Assembly: GCF_014843845.1 (NCBI RefSeq)
Contig: NZ_JHQS01000008.1
Span: 62,001 to 126,000, forward strand
DNA: 64,000 bases
From: Mesorhizobium amorphae
Lineage (GTDB): Bacteria; Pseudomonadota; Alphaproteobacteria; Rhizobiales; Rhizobiaceae
Direction of reading: 5' to 3'
The position numbers were made by a program, and so were the translations under genes. The number at the start of each line of letters is the position of its first letter. Position 1 is the stretch's first letter. The notes beneath the pieces are model-generated. The model saw only the letters and a program-made list of their open reading frames with translations, did no database searches and was not told where the DNA came from. This document shows, in pieces, positions 2,329-53,977 of this stretch.

Positions 2329-2476
2329 CTTTAGCGCCCTGGCATATGCGACGGGACCCGCTGGCTCATAGGCTGTACCAATGCCGGCGGCATAGTCGAT
2401 GCATAAAGGGGACGAAGCAGGCCGATGGTGGACCAACCGCCGCCTCCTGCTTCGCGGCTAAAGGTGGAGTGCCTCC

Positions 2477-4066
2477 ATGTCAGTGGCTCTTGAGAAGCAG
2501 GAAGCGTCGAGCGACCAACGTTCGCGGCGCTCAGGCGGGCGCGAAGCGCGTCGCGCCATGCGAGCGGCACCGCTCGCCGACGATATCAGGCCGGTGCGCG
2601 CCGGCCTCGAAGGCGGCAGTTATGGACCGCTCGGCGAGAACGATCGCGAGCGCATCCACGAGGCGGTGCTGACGCTGCTGGAGACCGTTGGCTTCGCCAA
2701 CGCCATTCCCTCCTGCATCGAGGCGCTGACCAAGGCTGGCGCCACCTACGGCGATGATGGGCGCATCCGCTTCCCGCGAGCGCTGGTGCTGGACACCATC
2801 AAGAAGGCGGCGCGGCATTTCACGCTGCACGGCCAGGACCCGAAGCACGACATGCTGATCAAGGGCAAGCGCGTGCATTACGGAACGGCGGGTGCTGCCG
2901 TGCACCTGGTCGACGTCGAGAAGCGCGAATACCGCGAGTCGCTTTTGCAGGACATCTATGACGCCGCCCGCATCGTCGAAGGGCTCGACAACATCCACTT
3001 CTTCCAGCGGCCGATGGTGCCGCGCGACATTCCCGATCCGCTCGATATGGACTTCAACACGCTCTACGCCTGCGTGATGGGAACGTCCAAGCATGTCGGC
3101 ACCTCGTTCACGGTGCGCGAGAATGTGCAGCCGGCGCTTGAGATGCTTTACGCGATCGCTGGCGGCGAGGAGAATTTCCGCGCCCGGCCATTCGTGTCGA
3201 ACTCGAACTGTTTCGTCGTGCCGCCGATGAAGTTCGCCGAGGACGCCTGCGGCGTGCTCGAAGCCTGCGTCGAAGGCGGCATTCCGATCCTGCTTTTGTC
3301 GGCCGGCCAGGCCGGTGCCACGGCGCCGGCGGCGATTGCCGGCGCGGTGGTGCAAGCGGTGGCCGAAGTGCTTGCCGGCCTCGTCTATGTCAACGCCATC
3401 AAGCCCGGCCACCCGGCGATCTTCGGCACCTGGCCATTCGTCTCCGATCTCAGGACCGGCGCCATGTCGGGCGGCTCGGCCGAGCAGGCGGTACTGACCG
3501 CGGCCTGCGCGCAGATGGCGCAATTCTACGATTTGCCGGGCGGCTCGGCCGCCGGCATGACGGATTCGAAATTGCCCGACATCCAGTCCGGCTATGAAAA
3601 GGGCATCACCGATGTGATGGCCGGTCTGGCCGGGCTCAACCTCGTCTACGAATCGGCCGGCATGCATGCCTCGCTGCTCGGATTCTGCCTGGAAAGCCTG
3701 ATCATCGACAATGACATGCTGGGCCACTGCCTGCGCTGCGTGCGCGGCATCGAGGTGACCGACGAGGCGCTGTCGATCGACACCATCGCCGATGTCTGCC
3801 TGAAGGGACCGGGTCACTATCTCGGCAACGAGCAGACACTCAGGCTGATGCAGACAGAATATTTCTATCCGGCCGTCGGCGACCGTTTCTCGCCGAAGGA
3901 ATGGAACGAAAAGGGCCGGCCCGACATATTGCAGCGGGCGATCATCGAGAAGAAGCGCGTGCTTGCCGAACGCTTCCCGCGCCACGTGCCGAAGCTGGTC
4001 GACGACAAACTGCGCGCCCGCTTCGGCGAGATGATCAAGCTGCCGCGCGGCGGCATGGGCGGTTGA
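2477..4066 (+). CDS. Trimethylamine methyltransferase (MttB) superfamily protein, non-pyrrolysine
   Basis: 529 aa, COG5598/MttB-type TIM-barrel methyltransferase. Members transfer a methyl group from a quaternary or tertiary amine to a corrinoid protein; the non-pyrrolysine branch includes the glycine betaine enzyme MtgB. The frame has no in-frame TAG, and the region that carries pyrrolysine in MttB reads GMTDSKLPDIQSGYEKG. The start is set by the ATG at 2477 with AAGGTGGAG 7 nt upstream. The N-terminal ~35 residues are Arg/Ser-rich and poorly conserved. No MttC/MtgC-like corrinoid protein, RamA or methyltetrahydrofolate methyltransferase gene lies in the window. The substrate is unknown; glycine betaine or a similar methylamine is an inference. 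Confidence 0.85.
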   Translation: MSVALEKQEASSDQRSRRSGGREARRAMRAAPLADDIRPVRAGLEGGSYGPLGENDRERIHEAVLTLLETVGFANAIPSCIEALTKAGATYGDDGRIRFPRALVLDTIKKAARHFTLHGQDPKHDMLIKGKRVHYGTAGAAVHLVDVEKREYRESLLQDIYDAARIVEGLDNIHFFQRPMVPRDIPDPLDMDFNTLYACVMGTSKHVGTSFTVRENVQPALEMLYAIAGGEENFRARPFVSNSNCFVVPPMKFAEDACGVLEACVEGGIPILLLSAGQAGATAPAAIAGAVVQAVAEVLAGLVYVNAIKPGHPAIFGTWPFVSDLRTGAMSGGSAEQAVLTAACAQMAQFYDLPGGSAAGMTDSKLPDIQSGYEKGITDVMAGLAGLNLVYESAGMHASLLGFCLESLIIDNDMLGHCLRCVRGIEVTDEALSIDTIADVCLKGPGHYLGNEQTLRLMQTEYFYPAVGDRFSPKEWNEKGRPDILQRAIIEKKRVLAERFPRHVPKLVDDKLRARFGEMIKLPRGGMGG

Positions 4067-49232: not shown

Positions 49233-50216
49233 TCAGGCGGTCCGGCGATGCTTGCTGGCCGCAGGCTCCAGGGCGTCGGCGGTGACCAGCCGGTTGCGGC
49301 CGTTTTTCTTGCCGACATACATCAGCCGGTCGGCCAGCGCGACCAGAGCGTCGCCGTCGCCGGCTTCGGATGGATAGATGGCGACGCCGATGGTGCAGCT
49401 GACCTGGATGTCGCCGTTCGGCGCCGGAACCTTGATGCGAAGCCGTTCCAGGACGCGTTCGGCGACGCGCACGGCCTTTTGCCTTGCCTGGTCCGCTTGC
49501 CCCGAAAACAGCAAGGCGAACTCGTCGCCACCGAGCCGCGCCACGAAATCGTCGCTGCGCAGGACGGATCGAAGGTGGTTCGACACGCCCTGCAGCAGCG
49601 CGTCGCCGGCCTCGTGGCCGAGCGTGTCGTTGACCTCCTTGAACTGGTCGAGATCGATGAACAGAAGACCGGCCGTCTGGCCGTTACCGGCGCAGCGGGC
49701 GACCACCGATTTGAGCTCGTTGTGGAAGGCGCGCCGGTTGGGCAGGTCGGTCAACAGATCGTGGTTAGCCGAATGGTCGCTCTGCTGCTTGGCCAGCTCG
49801 ATCTCGTGCTTTTGCGCGGAGAGCTCCTCGTTGGCGACCTTCAGATCCTGCAGCAGCTGGGCGTTGAGGTCCTCGACAACCTTGCGGTCGCTGATGTCGA
49901 CGACGAACCCTTCCAGGAATTCGAGCTCGCCGGCATCGTCCCAGACGCCGCCGCCGATCTCGCGGACCCAAAGCGCTTCGCCGACCTTGGGCACGATGCG
50001 ATAGTCGACGTTCCAGTTGCGGCGCGCCTCGAGCGCTGCGTCGACGGCAGCATAGACGGAGGCAAGATCGTCCGGGTGGATGGCCGAAACATAGTCGCGC
50101 ACGGCATTGTGCACGAAATCCGTGGGCGGATAGCCGCTGACGGTGAAAATGCCGTCGCTGATATAGAGCATGGTGTAGGATTGATCGTTGCGGCAGCGGT
50201 AGAGATAGCCGTCCAT
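49233..50216 (-). CDS. PAS-GGDEF protein, probable diguanylate cyclase
   Basis: 327 aa. Residues ~1-115 are a PAS/PAC sensor (IFTVSGYPPTDF, IVPKVGEALWVREIGGGVWDD), ~115-145 a coiled-coil linker, and ~150-315 a GGDEF domain with an intact active site (RLGGDEFALLF) and DLDQFKEVNDTLGHEAGD. It probably makes c-di-GMP. The PAS domain is cut at its front: conserved-looking HDERLDALLSITGR lies in frame upstream without a start, while an ATG at 50305 (MKHDGVSVSAVGHRP) is one base out of frame. So the intact gene may have begun at 50305 and suffered a one-base deletion. Confidence 0.82.
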   Translation of the reverse strand: MDGYLYRCRNDQSYTMLYISDGIFTVSGYPPTDFVHNAVRDYVSAIHPDDLASVYAAVDAALEARRNWNVDYRIVPKVGEALWVREIGGGVWDDAGELEFLEGFVVDISDRKVVEDLNAQLLQDLKVANEELSAQKHEIELAKQQSDHSANHDLLTDLPNRRAFHNELKSVVARCAGNGQTAGLLFIDLDQFKEVNDTLGHEAGDALLQGVSNHLRSVLRSDDFVARLGGDEFALLFSGQADQARQKAVRVAERVLERLRIKVPAPNGDIQVSCTIGVAIYPSEAGDGDALVALADRLMYVGKKNGRNRLVTADALEPAASKHRRTA

Positions 50217-50458
50217 GCGGCCGGTGATGCTGAGCAGCGCGTCGAGCCGCTCGTCGTGGTAGGCCTGTGGCCGACCGCCGATACAGAAACCCCGTCATGC
50301 TTCATGGCCGCACCCCCATTTGGCGGTCTGAGCGCGCCGCAGATGCCGTTACGGCAAGTCGGCAAAGAGGTTCTATATCCGCTGAGTATTATCAATCTGT
50401 TATGGGGGTGTGGATTTGCCGAGGCGTGCGGCGACCGACTAGCTACCAGCGGAATAGG

Positions 50459-51268
50459 TCACGCATCAGGCCCCACTAAGGTTCTATTCCCAACGCAAGC
50501 CTGCTCTTTGACAGGAACCTGCTCGATTATTCCAGCCGACTTATCCGAAAATCTCTTGATTTGTCCGCGTTTGTATTTGGAAATCATTCCTGACTCCCAC
50601 GCTTGGTAGCTTCTCGTTTTAAGATTTCGTTTTGTTGAAATGATCTGTTCAAAATGCCGATCAAAATCACGCTCAAAGGCGTTTGGAGAAGATACCAAAT
50701 CGTGAATCAGCATAGCGAGAGCTTCGAGTAACGACAGCTTAAACCTAACCGATAGGGCATTTTCTTTTTTTATTGCCGCTATCATCGGCCCAGATATATC
50801 TGTCTCTTCCGAATTTAGAGGGCGACTCCACTGCCCGTGCGCTAATGTATTCCTCATTTCAATAACCGGAGTTAGTTCACCCGAAATAACATCTGAAAGC
50901 GCACCATACCTCATCAATGCTGTAGGTTTTAGTGTCTGTTCTGACAGCTTTGCTTTTGGCACGTTATAACGTTTGCGATAGCCTAGTTCGAGTGACGAAT
51001 GCCACGATTCAATCTGTGAGCGCTTGTCGAATATTTGCTTGCGGGCTGAGTCGTCAAATCCCGAGGATTCATATAGAAGCTTTTTAAGGCGGCATTCGGC
51101 CCAAGCTCCTGTGAGTAGCAAGAGGATTTTGATCAGAGTGTCCGCTGATAGCTTATCCTCTCTCGCAAGCGCTGCACGCAGCTCTCGCTCCGTGTGCATG
51201 ATGCCATCGTGTACGGCCTTCAGATTCAGGACGTGGGCTTTGTACAAATCCGGAGCGCTGAGGGCCAT
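50459..51268 (-). CDS. AT-rich hypothetical protein with HEPN-like RNTLAH motif
   Basis: 269 aa from ATG 51268. The gene is clearly richer in A and T than its neighbours. All-helical appearance; the stretch VIEMRNTLAHGQW around residue 130 matches the R-N-x3-H motif of HEPN ribonucleases, and the long Lys/Arg-rich C-terminus could bind RNA. HEPN proteins often act in toxin-antitoxin, abortive-infection or anti-phage systems, but I see no antitoxin, MNT or ATPase partner here. Its GGGAG ribosome-binding site lies in the hairpin at 51280-51326. Accessory origin and the HEPN call are inference. Confidence 0.6.
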   Translation of the reverse strand: MALSAPDLYKAHVLNLKAVHDGIMHTERELRAALAREDKLSADTLIKILLLLTGAWAECRLKKLLYESSGFDDSARKQIFDKRSQIESWHSSLELGYRKRYNVPKAKLSEQTLKPTALMRYGALSDVISGELTPVIEMRNTLAHGQWSRPLNSEETDISGPMIAAIKKENALSVRFKLSLLEALAMLIHDLVSSPNAFERDFDRHFEQIISTKRNLKTRSYQAWESGMISKYKRGQIKRFSDKSAGIIEQVPVKEQACVGNRTLVGPDA

Positions 51269-51279
51269 TAATCCAGAAC

Positions 51280-51326
51280 TCCCGGCCACCAAAAGGCAAA
51301 TATGACTTGCCCTTTGGTGGCCGGGA
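51280..51326 (-). promoter_or_regulatory. 20-bp hairpin covering the Shine-Dalgarno of the HEPN-like gene
   Basis: Minus strand: TCCCGGCCACCAAAGGGCAA, 7-nt loop, TTGCCTTTTGGTGGCCGGGA, a 20-bp helix with one G-U wobble. The last GGGA of the 3' arm is part of GGGAG, 10 nt before the start codon at 51268. The 5' arm is also the 3' part of the tRNA-like sequence at 51313-51378. There is no T tract, so it is not a normal terminator. Confidence 0.7.
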
Positions 51327-51378
51327 ATCGAACCCGACTAGACTCCTTGCGGCATGTTTCCATTACACCATCACCCAA
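51313..51378 (-). tRNA. Degenerate tRNA-like sequence (probable pseudo-tRNA)
   Basis: On the minus strand: acceptor TTGGGTGA opposite CCACCAAA (six of eight pairs), a good D arm GTGT-AATGGAA-ACAT with A14 and G18G19, and a good T arm TCGGG-TTCGATT-CCCGG. The anticodon arm plus variable region is only 15 nt instead of about 22 and does not fold, and no CCA is encoded. No anticodon can be read, so it cannot be a normal tRNA. It is either a decayed tRNA, as left by an integration event, or a tRNA mimic. Confidence 0.4.
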
Positions 51379-51458
51379 GCTTTCGATCGCACAATCCGTA
51401 GTACTGGGCAAGTAATCACGAGTCAGTCATTGACTGCAGAACCTTCCTTACTGGAACG

Positions 51459-53738
51459 TCAAGCCCCCGCCGTATAGGCCGCGATCGCCGCCATGTTGAC
51501 GATGTCTGAGTCCTTGGCATTCAGCGAAACGATCTGCACCGGCTTGTTGAGGCCGACCAGCAGCGGGCCGATGACGGTCGAGCCGCCGAGCTCCTGCAGC
51601 ATCTTGGTCGAGATCGAGGCCGAGTGGAACGCGGGCATGATCAGCACGTTGGCGGGGCCGGTCAGGCGGATGAACGGGTATTGCGCCATGGCGCGGGCAT
51701 TGAGCGCCACGTCGGCGGCCATCTCGCCGTCATATTCGAAATCGACGCGGCGCTTGTCGAGGATGCGCACCGCTTCCTGCACGCGCTCGGAGCGTTCACC
51801 CTGCGGATGGCCGAAGGTGGAGTAGGCGAGCATGGCGAGCCTCGGCTCGTAGCCCATGCGGCGGGCAAAGCCTGCCGCTTCCTCGGCGATGTCGGCGATC
51901 TGCTCGGCATTCGGCATATCGTGCACGGCAGTGTCGGCGACCAGTACCGTTCTGCCCCGCGCGAGCACGATCGACACGCCGATGACGCGGTGGCCGGGCT
52001 TGGCGTCGATGATGCGACGGATGTCGTCGAGCGCCGTGGAATAGTTGCGGGTGACGCCGGTGACGATGCCGTCGGCATCGCCCAGCGCCACCATGCAGGC
52101 GGCGAAATGGTTGCGGTCATTGTTGATCAGGCGCTGGCAATCGCGAAACAGGAAGCCCTTCCTCTGCATGCGTTCATAGAGATAGTCGGTATAGATGCCG
52201 TTGCGGCGCGACAGCCTGGCATTGATGATCTCGATGCCTTGCTTGTTGAGCTCGATGCCGGCGTGCTTGGCGTTTTCCTTGATGACGTCGTCGCGGCCGA
52301 GCAGGATGGCGGTGCCGAGCTTCTGGTTCACATAGGAGACGGCAGCGCGCATGACCTGCTCCTCCTCGCCCTCGGCGAAGACGATGCGCTTGGGCTGGCG
52401 ACGCACGCGGTCATAGATGCGCTGCAAGGTCGAGGCTATCGGGTCGCGGCGGGCCGAAAGTTCCTGCGCGTAGCGGTCGAGATCGAGGATCGGCTTGCGG
52501 GCGACGCCCGACTCCATCGCGGCCTTGGCGACCGCAAGCGGGATGGCCGCGATCAGACGCGGATCGAACGGCACCGGGATGATGTAGTTGGGGCCGAATT
52601 TCGGCCGGTTGCCCTGATAGGCGGCGGCGACGTCGTCGGGCACGTCCTTGCGCGCCAGTTCGGCCAGCGCGCGTGCGGCAGCGATCTTCATCTCGTCATT
52701 GATGGTGGTGGCCCTGACATCCAGCGCGCCGCGAAAGATGTAGGGGAAACCGAGCACATTGTTGACCTGGTTCGGATAGTCCGAGCGCCCGGTCGCCATG
52801 ATGGCGTCGGTGCGTATCTCGGCCACTTCCTCCGGCGTGATCTCCGGGTCGGGATTGGCCATGGCGAAGATGATCGGGTTCTTGGCCATCGACTGCACCA
52901 TCTTGGTGGTCAGCGCGCCCCTGGCGGAGAGGCCGAGGAAGACATCGGCGCCATCCAGCGCCTCGGCCAGGCTGCGCGCCTCGGTCTTGACGGCATGCGC
53001 CGACTTCCACTGGTTCATGCCTTCGGTGCGGCCCTGGAAGACCACGCCCTTGGTGTCGCACAGGATGATGTTTTCCGGCGAAAAGCCCATCGCCTTCATC
53101 AGCTCGATGCAGGCGATGCCTGCCGCCCCCGCGCCGTTGCAGACCATCTTCGTGGTCTTCATGTCGCGGCCGGTGATCTCCAGCGCGTTGATCAGGCCGG
53201 CGGCCGAGATGATGGCGGTGCCGTGCTGGTCGTCATGGAAGACGGGAATGTCCATCAATTCGCGCAGCCGCTGCTCGATGATGAAGCATTCCGGCGCCTT
53301 GATGTCCTCGAGGTTGATGCCGCCGAAGGAGGGGCCGAGGAAGCGCACGCAGTTGATGAACTCGTCGGCATCCTCGGTGTCGACTTCGAGGTCGATGGAA
53401 TCGACATCGGCGAAGCGCTTGAACAGCACCGCCTTGCCTTCCATCACCGGCTTGGAGGCGAGCGCGCCGAGATTGCCGAGGCCGAGGATGGCGGTGCCGT
53501 TGGAGATGACGGCGACCATGTTGCCGCGCGTCGTGTAGTCGAAGGCGCGGCTCGGGTCCTCGGCGATGGCGCGCACCGGAACGGCGACGCCCGGCGAATA
53601 GGCGAGGCTGAGATCGCGCTGCGTCGCCATCGGTTTGGTGGCGACGATCTCCAGCTTGCCCGGGCGGCCCATGGCGTGGAATTCCAGCGCCTCCTGGGCG
53701 CTGACGGAGGGGCCGCTGTTTTCGGTTTTCCTGGCCAT
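51459..53738 (-). CDS. maeB: NADP-type malic enzyme with phosphotransacetylase-like domain
   Basis: 759 aa. Residues ~1-430 form the malic enzyme (LSLAYSPGVAVP; FHDDQHGTAIISAAGLINAL; NAD(P) site MVCNGAGAAGIACIELM) and ~440-759 a PTA_PTB domain that is usually regulatory rather than catalytic. It decarboxylates malate to pyruvate; in rhizobia the DME and TME enzymes share this layout, and DME is needed for nitrogen fixation in Sinorhizobium. NAD versus NADP preference cannot be told here. Start at ATG 53738. Divergent from mutS across 239 bp. Confidence 0.93.
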   Translation of the reverse strand: MARKTENSGPSVSAQEALEFHAMGRPGKLEIVATKPMATQRDLSLAYSPGVAVPVRAIAEDPSRAFDYTTRGNMVAVISNGTAILGLGNLGALASKPVMEGKAVLFKRFADVDSIDLEVDTEDADEFINCVRFLGPSFGGINLEDIKAPECFIIEQRLRELMDIPVFHDDQHGTAIISAAGLINALEITGRDMKTTKMVCNGAGAAGIACIELMKAMGFSPENIILCDTKGVVFQGRTEGMNQWKSAHAVKTEARSLAEALDGADVFLGLSARGALTTKMVQSMAKNPIIFAMANPDPEITPEEVAEIRTDAIMATGRSDYPNQVNNVLGFPYIFRGALDVRATTINDEMKIAAARALAELARKDVPDDVAAAYQGNRPKFGPNYIIPVPFDPRLIAAIPLAVAKAAMESGVARKPILDLDRYAQELSARRDPIASTLQRIYDRVRRQPKRIVFAEGEEEQVMRAAVSYVNQKLGTAILLGRDDVIKENAKHAGIELNKQGIEIINARLSRRNGIYTDYLYERMQRKGFLFRDCQRLINNDRNHFAACMVALGDADGIVTGVTRNYSTALDDIRRIIDAKPGHRVIGVSIVLARGRTVLVADTAVHDMPNAEQIADIAEEAAGFARRMGYEPRLAMLAYSTFGHPQGERSERVQEAVRILDKRRVDFEYDGEMAADVALNARAMAQYPFIRLTGPANVLIMPAFHSASISTKMLQELGGSTVIGPLLVGLNKPVQIVSLNAKDSDIVNMAAIAAYTAGA

Positions 53739-53977
53739 GATGCTCTTGATTTCCTCGCCGGTGCGGCACCCTTGAGATGGACGCCATGTTTTTGTGAGCT
53801 TCCGGATTAAGGCCACACGAGGACGCTGTAAACCGCCAAGCGATCCGGAAAAGCGCTTCTGGCATGTCACGGACTGTCGGCGGTCCGGCGCCGGCAACAG
53901 CGGGTGCGGCCGCTTCTTCCCCTGCTTTTCGAGCCGCCGGCATTAAACCCGGCAAGCACATCTGCTAGCGTGCCGGC

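Follow-up and report, generated by a model that had tools for sequence, protein, structure and literature searches.

Does the leader of a HEPN-like gene in Mesorhizobium amorphae, in which a tRNA-like sequence runs directly into a long hairpin, act as a switch on that gene, or is it a trace of some past event in the DNA? An earlier reading made from the letters alone (the sequence-only reading) had raised the first possibility, and had given as the plain alternative a scar left by integration at a tRNA gene. We examined the locus in the window, by which we mean the whole stretch of 64,000 nucleotides analysed here, and compared it with homologs from genome contigs, plasmids, phages, viral contigs and whole genomes. 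The features of the locus are listed in Table 1.

Table 1. Positions of the leader, gene and insert, numbered from the first letter of the window
Feature	Position	Strand	Basis
Inserted stretch, ~1.05 kb	50408..51456	.	Missing between the same flanks in relatives (BLAST of flanks)
HEPN-like gene, 269 aa	50459..51268	-	PHROG family phrog_12663 (function not assigned there), E = 1.1e-83; motif RNTLAHGQW
GGGAG, likely ribosome-binding site within hairpin 3' arm	51279..51283	-	Sequence; 10 nt before ATG at 51268
23-bp hairpin sharing T-stem and acceptor 3' strands with the tRNA-like element	51279..51327	-	z = -9.4; covariation; 20/23 element-bearing leaders
tRNA-like element: short acceptor, D arm, collapsed anticodon arm, T arm	51314..51377	-	Sequence and covariation; 23/24 loci
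T arm, loop TTCGATT	51321..51337	-	Sequence and covariation
D arm of tRNA-like element	51354..51368	-	D stem 100% of cells paired in 12 leaders; 2/4 pairs changed on both sides
Weak promoter-like pair TTGCCC, 17 nt, GATCGA	51383..51411	-	Placed by eye where relatives' clearer promoters lie; predicted only

The HEPN-like gene and its relatives

The gene had been taken to encode a HEPN-like protein, and its motif supports this. The window protein is probably all-helical, and its R-x4-H motif (R139-x4-H144), which lies within the R-x4-6-H pattern of HEPN proteins, is invariant among 34 close and 21 diverged proteins; the product is predicted to be a HEPN-type ribonuclease. The family comprises at least 255 protein clusters, and the only family assignment found for it is phrog_12663. 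Otherwise the window protein showed no family match at E <= 0.001, Abi_2 included, and it falls in no Pfam or PADLOC family, and so in no known type III toxin family. The Abi_2 profile gave no match for six relatives at E <= 1, AbiF was not among the matches listed by Foldseek or VIA-align, and sequence search found no relative of solved structure. Weak matches were obtained only with the member from a Rhodococcus plasmid (L015), to phrog_2158 'abortive infection' (E = 0.0022) and to Cas13e (E = 0.0072, far under the Cas13e cut-off).

The gene is rare. Among 385 genomes of the class, a match was present in one, that of the window itself; it was also found in two of 398 genomes of the phylum (own included), and in further genome sets in one of 321 (the centre genome itself) and four of 295 (centre included); the leader is present in two of 146 genomes of the genus, again counting the window's own. 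One member from Pseudoalteromonas (P0075) represents 86 contigs, far above most other members, perhaps owing to recent spread. A 3' fragment of a homolog, covering 45% of the query, lies beside sitABCD in E. coli lambda-like phages (six records) and in one E. coli plasmid; the tRNA-like element is absent from the two of these seven records that were inspected (L016 3001-3366 and L017 2501-2866).

Leaders were compared among 24 loci with upstream DNA, namely the window, L012-L015, L018-L023, L025, L026, L167, L168, L221, L225-L227, L231, L232 and L234-L236, some of which are close relatives. L012 is from Mesorhizobium, L013 from Pseudoroseomonas, L014 from a plasmid of the cyanobacterium Kovacikia, and L015 and L168 from plasmids of Rhodococcus and Raoultella, respectively. 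The loci are spread over alpha- and gammaproteobacteria, a cyanobacterium, Rhodococcus and viral contigs, and protein identity falls to about 19%. Excluded before any counts were L024 (its contig starts at the gene), L222 (its leader is that of L221), duplicate records of the same contigs and the 3' gene fragments in E. coli records. A non-redundant set of 18 loci (A5) was also made without the near copies L012, L025, L226, L227 and L232.

The inserted cassette

In the window the gene lies between a malic-enzyme (maeB-type) gene at 51459-53897 and a PAS-GGDEF gene at 49233-50216. Both flanks are within reach in 4 of 24 relatives by BLAST, and there the spacing from maeB to the GGDEF gene is 77, 104, 193 and 273 bp versus about 1.05 kb in the window. 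The insert consists of the leader and the gene; no integrase was seen inside it, and the empty sites of relatives that were inspected contain no tRNA-like element. Within the window's genome the element occurs at a single place, and there is no second copy of the palindrome that forms the hairpin. In Mesorhizobium sp. LMG 17147 (L012, G131:C11:526198-529290) a maeB fragment sits directly upstream of the cassette and the full maeB match about 2.4 kb off, as if the cassette had moved together with a piece of its former flank.

Seven of 20 neighbour proteins of the relatives could be matched. PifA and PDC-S33 lie next to L168, and a weak PDC-M58A match next to L015; the other four are a resolvase at L021, a terminase at L225, a dGTP diphosphohydrolase domain at L018 and, at L013, a polysaccharide enzyme carrying a lipase domain. 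The Rhodococcus record also has an AbiGi-type gene and a restriction endonuclease annotated nearby. We infer a role in defence for the cassette, which is probably a phage-defence or toxin module. Elsewhere in the window, Rfam PYLIS_3 (the pyrrolysine insertion sequence of mttB) matches at 3557-3656 (+) with 53.2 bits against a cut-off of 38, within a long open frame (2462-4063).

The tRNA-like element

The leader had been described as containing a tRNA-like sequence with D and T arms and a collapsed anticodon arm, and such an element is indeed present, the limits first proposed for it being off by 1-2 nt at most. In the window the D stem reads GTGT/ACAT and the D loop contains GG; the collapsed arm is CC-GCAA-GG, the T arm is TCGGG-TTCGATT-CCCGG, and the 3' strand of the acceptor, CCACC, leads into AAAG. 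Compared with the 7 bp of a tRNA the acceptor is short, with four of five pairs in the window and 4-5 in the other 22 loci bearing the element. Constant in most loci, besides these 4-5 pairs, are the GG of the D loop, the T loop TTC(A/G)A (which is also the pattern by which T loops were searched) and AAAG or a near variant after the acceptor. The arm at the anticodon position varies, from GCAA or TTCG tetraloops up to several tens of nucleotides.

Folded alone, the tRNA-like part is no stabler than shuffled sequences (z = -0.03; 97 of 200 as good), and it was therefore judged by comparison among loci. ARAGORN finds no tRNA in the window, and Rfam has no match at the element there at gathering score. 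Among relatives, ARAGORN calls a tRNA in 6 of 22, with anticodons that differ or have two bases, and the Rfam tRNA model scores above its gathering score in 4 of 10. From this pattern and the variable anticodon arm we conclude that the element is tRNA-like and does not look like a working tRNA. It is also unmatched by the T-box families of Rfam, both in the window and in 10 relatives. The element is perhaps of tRNA descent. Its D arm, ATGGTGTAATGG, is common to many phage tRNAs of viral contigs (L046-L165, among the matches listed), and phage tRNAs with the D arm ATGGTGTAATGG are a possible origin of the mimic.

The hairpin and the shared strand

The long helix reported to contain most of the GGGAG is a perfect hairpin of 23 pairs with a loop of 3 (arms 51327-51305 and 51301-51279); its stability is -41.1 kcal/mol, and none of 200 shuffles is as good. 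The lower half of its 5' arm (51325-51314) is at the same time the T-stem 3' strand and the acceptor 3' strand of the tRNA-like element, and the two folds consequently exclude each other, as the sequence-only reading had argued.

Retention of the element with the gene, and covariation of both folds, had been named beforehand as checks on that reading, and both were borne out. The tRNA-like element is found upstream of the gene in 23 of the 24 loci, of which 20 also have the hairpin, with at least 16 and up to 20 of 20 pairs. The miss is L236, which was the weakest match of its homolog search and enters none of the covariation sets; the hairpin is lacking in L014 (10/20 pairs) and L234 (9/20) and weak in L026 (12/18).

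Over the 18 non-redundant loci, for which the acceptor strands were chosen manually and each hairpin register was the best-scoring one, two choices that raise the pairing, 95.0% of cells in the T stem and acceptor are paired (shuffled 61.6%) and 56 are changed on both sides (shuffled 15.3; 0/500 shuffles as good). Eight of these ten pairs are changed on both sides, a number also reached by 114 of 500 shuffles. For the hairpin, pairing is 85.5% (shuffled 56.4%) with 106 double-changed cells (31.1; 0/500), and 18 of 20 pairs are changed on both sides (1/500). When the partner is shifted by 1-3 columns, the pairing of both folds falls to 28-52%; the tolerated pairs of both include G-U. In a MAFFT alignment of 12 leaders, the 14 tRNA-type pairs of D stem, T stem and acceptor are paired in 94.6% of cells (shuffled 74.4%), with 36 double-changed cells versus 12.5 in shuffles (0/500). 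A single comparison illustrates the point: from L019 to L235 the acceptor goes from GGCG/CGCC to AACG/CGTT, and the hairpin arm has changed along with it.

Because registers were chosen for each locus, foreign downstream DNA was given equal register freedom as a control. It yielded 12.6 of 20 pairs (sd 2.0) versus 17.1 for a locus's own DNA, poor-hairpin loci included; only 6.5% of 306 foreign pairings reached 17/20, and the acceptor reached 5/5 in 72% of own versus 14% of foreign pairings. Comparison among the loci shows both predicted folds to be kept by compensating changes though they share one strand.

These results bear on the integration scar, in which the element would be what is left of a tRNA gene at which integration took place, and the palindrome a product of chance. 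Such an origin would suit a D arm like those of phage tRNAs and a stretch that is an insertion missing in relatives. We nevertheless consider it highly improbable, because some relatives show an empty site with neither leader nor gene and because both folds covary in unrelated genomes; the retention of the element with the gene and its restriction to one place in the genome speak against it as well. Very unlikely, too, is a palindrome that acts as DNA, for example as a site at which the mobile cassette binds a protein or recombines, and that has no function at the RNA level. The cassette does move, and perfect palindromes can serve as DNA sites, but G-U pairs are tolerated here, the D stem and T loop are conserved though a palindrome needs neither, and the window's genome holds no second copy.

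Search for further copies

The combination of the two folds is largely confined to this family in the material searched. A survey of 284 sequences yielded 987 distinct T-arm-like sites; such a hairpin follows 22 of them, and 20 of the 22 are leaders of this family (L226, with the motif SHGQW instead of AHGQW, being counted in); the others are L264, a tRNA-Arg, and L196. A covariance model (R1) scored 8 of 11 leaders outside its training above the best ordinary tRNA of the loci examined (30.2 bits). As for the remaining three, L014 scored 30.1 bits and L234 8.9, and L026 was not among the matches listed. Run over 381 genomes of the class, R1 gave 91.9 bits for the window and at most 33.2 bits in any other genome; some match at E <= 0.01 was present in 105 genomes, and the four matches outside the window's genome with the best E-values are, according to ARAGORN, ordinary tRNAs. 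R1 thus showed no strong gene-free copy of the leader in these 381 genomes, a null that covers strong copies only, since diverged members (30-34 bits) blend with tRNAs and diverged copies could hide among them. A DNA-pattern search of viral contigs gave, among the matches listed (at least 120), full-length arms like those of ordinary phage tRNAs and no new member, and a stricter pattern returned three contigs, the known loci L018 and L020 and a tRNA-Ala.

Transcript start, order of folding and the ribosome-binding site

In 16 of the 23 element-bearing loci, the -10 of the best sigma-70 match within a 170-nt region ends 3-9 nt short of the element, the gap being exactly 6 nt in 12 of them, where 1.1 loci would be expected and at most 4 were seen in 200 shuffles that preserved single-base composition only; the 16 include the close relatives L168, L226 and L227. 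From the position of these matches just upstream of it, the element is predicted to be the mRNA 5' end in most relatives, with the start at its first base. The loci outside the 16 are the window, which scores low, L012, L019, L021, L025, L232 and L234, and a stricter scan found no promoter before the element in the window. A start downstream of 51326, which would leave the elements out of the mRNA and had been put forward as grounds for abandoning the sequence-only reading, is accordingly not indicated in relatives, but neither the window nor L012 belongs to the 16.

When 9 of the 23 leaders were folded at growing lengths, the T stem and/or acceptor appeared in the shorter fragments and the lower hairpin took over at about 94-123 nt, its final probability being 1.0 in four leaders, 0.70-0.88 in four and 0.5 in L231. 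The early T stem is weak and the acceptor strong in L013 and L231, and tRNA-like pairs are temporarily lost at middle lengths in L013, L015 and L021. When the leaders of the 20 hairpin loci are folded complete, enforcing the tRNA-like pairs costs about 7-31 kcal/mol relative to the free fold.

The hairpin had been supposed to mask the ribosome-binding site and the tRNA-like fold to free it. For the window this is what folding predicts, the ribosome-binding region being 10% unpaired when the leader folds freely and 53% with the tRNA-like pairs enforced. Under this constraint the start region opens in 16 of the hairpin loci, whereas it stays closed in the remaining four of the 20 (L020, L225, L226 and L232). 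Masking applies less widely. From the end of the hairpin to the start codon the distance is 6-17 nt in 13 of the 20 loci and 23-66 nt in the other seven (L013, L018, L168, L226, L227, L231 and L232, the start codons of L231 and L232 having been assigned by hand). Because of these seven, masking of the start site is common but not universal, and the conserved feature is the exclusion of the two folds.

A proposed mechanism

We regard it as about an even proposition that this bistable leader, with its two exclusive folds, is an RNA switch controlling the predicted HEPN ribonuclease, most likely via binding by that protein. Transcription would start at the first base of the element in most relatives, so that the tRNA-like fold would be made first. 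The T stem and/or acceptor would form early and be displaced by the hairpin once its second arm emerges, as predicted for nine leaders, and in roughly two thirds of the loci that have it, the hairpin would then cover the ribosome-binding site. The tRNA-like state may be held by an elbow-recognising protein, for which the HEPN protein itself is the likeliest candidate, and the amount made of a possibly toxic RNase would thereby be set. The leader would then be a compact switch in which one strand serves two folds, both retained by selection. Counting against the switch are L236 without the element, L014 and L234 without the hairpin and L026 with a weak one, the failure of masking in 7 of 20 loci, the four loci whose start region stays closed when the tRNA-like pairs are enforced, the weak promoter of the window, the ordinary stability of the tRNA-like part by itself, and the weak early T stem or passing loss of tRNA-like pairs in L013, L015, L021 and L231.

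More tentatively, the cassette may be a one-gene defence module in which the HEPN RNase recognises a tRNA mimic at the 5' end of its own mRNA by the elbow, and the strand-swapping hairpin makes the mimic brief or limits it to shortened RNA. The mimic would in that case be an antitoxin or docking site and also a timer: the RNase would be restrained as long as the mimic stays intact, and would be made or released once the elbow becomes engaged or is lost, for example during phage attack on tRNAs.

A related possibility, which we think doubtful, is that transcripts terminated or processed at the hairpin yield a short tRNA-like RNA, which acts in trans by binding the HEPN protein and holding it inactive, like RCd22 and AbiF in C. 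difficile. The order of parts, promoter, structured RNA, hairpin and HEPN gene, is as in AbiF (PMC12373285); the upper hairpin is followed by 3-6 U in several relatives; and a transcript ending at the hairpin would retain the tRNA-like fold, as fragments of that length partly do. On the other hand, no intrinsic terminator or terminator-like site was found in the window's leader, the U runs are short or absent in five loci (L015, L021, L023, L025 and L225), and there is no match to Abi_2 or RF03085.

It is unlikely that the mimic is instead a sensor of infection or damage, with a host or phage tRNA enzyme, not the HEPN protein, binding, cutting or modifying it and so turning the gene on or off. 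The constancy of the elbow parts (D and T arms) beside a variable arm in the anticodon place would agree with this, as would the position of some cassettes near defence or phage genes, but no partner gene recurs among the 20 neighbour proteins and no single enzyme is indicated.

Comparison with known systems

A literature search of titles and abstracts, with subscription papers mostly outside it, gave no description of a tRNA-like element before a HEPN gene. Several known systems share single traits with the locus. The E. coli thrS leader, which serves autoregulation by tRNA mimicry, is likewise an mRNA leader resembling a tRNA next to a ribosome-binding site; the mimic here, in contrast, combines D and T arms with an anticodon arm that is reduced or variable, and it precedes a HEPN-like gene whose product may bind it. 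Type III toxin-antitoxin systems such as ToxIN, whose antitoxin RNA is made of repeats, also place an RNA element upstream of a predicted RNase gene, whereas the present locus has a HEPN-like protein that is probably all-helical and, in place of the known antitoxin repeats, a tRNA-like element. The mascRNA-type tRNA-like RNAs, which are eukaryotic and cut from long non-coding RNA, resemble the element in that their D and T arms go with an anticodon arm of small size, but the element is bacterial and predicted at an mRNA 5' end.

The closest known kind is AbiF with its upstream RNA. In a C. difficile prophage, AbiF, a HEPN protein of the Abi_2 family, is preceded in the same transcription unit by the RNA RCd22 (motif RF03085), which binds AbiF in trans and keeps it inactive (PMC12373285). 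The two systems have in common a structured RNA directly before a HEPN gene in one transcription unit (shown for AbiF, predicted here) and a mobile, prophage-type setting. They differ in that the leader here is tRNA-like and has a strand in common with the hairpin, and in that neither an Abi_2 match nor a terminator is found in the window; RF03085 has no match in the window, nor in 10 relatives at E <= 0.5. Membership in AbiF is therefore not supported. The present comparison connects a HEPN-like family that has no name with a structured RNA accompanying it in three bacterial phyla. If the protein does bind the mimic, it would be another HEPN RNase, beside AbiF, that is governed by RNA before its gene, and this would bear on the possible origin of RNA-guided HEPN enzymes such as Cas13.
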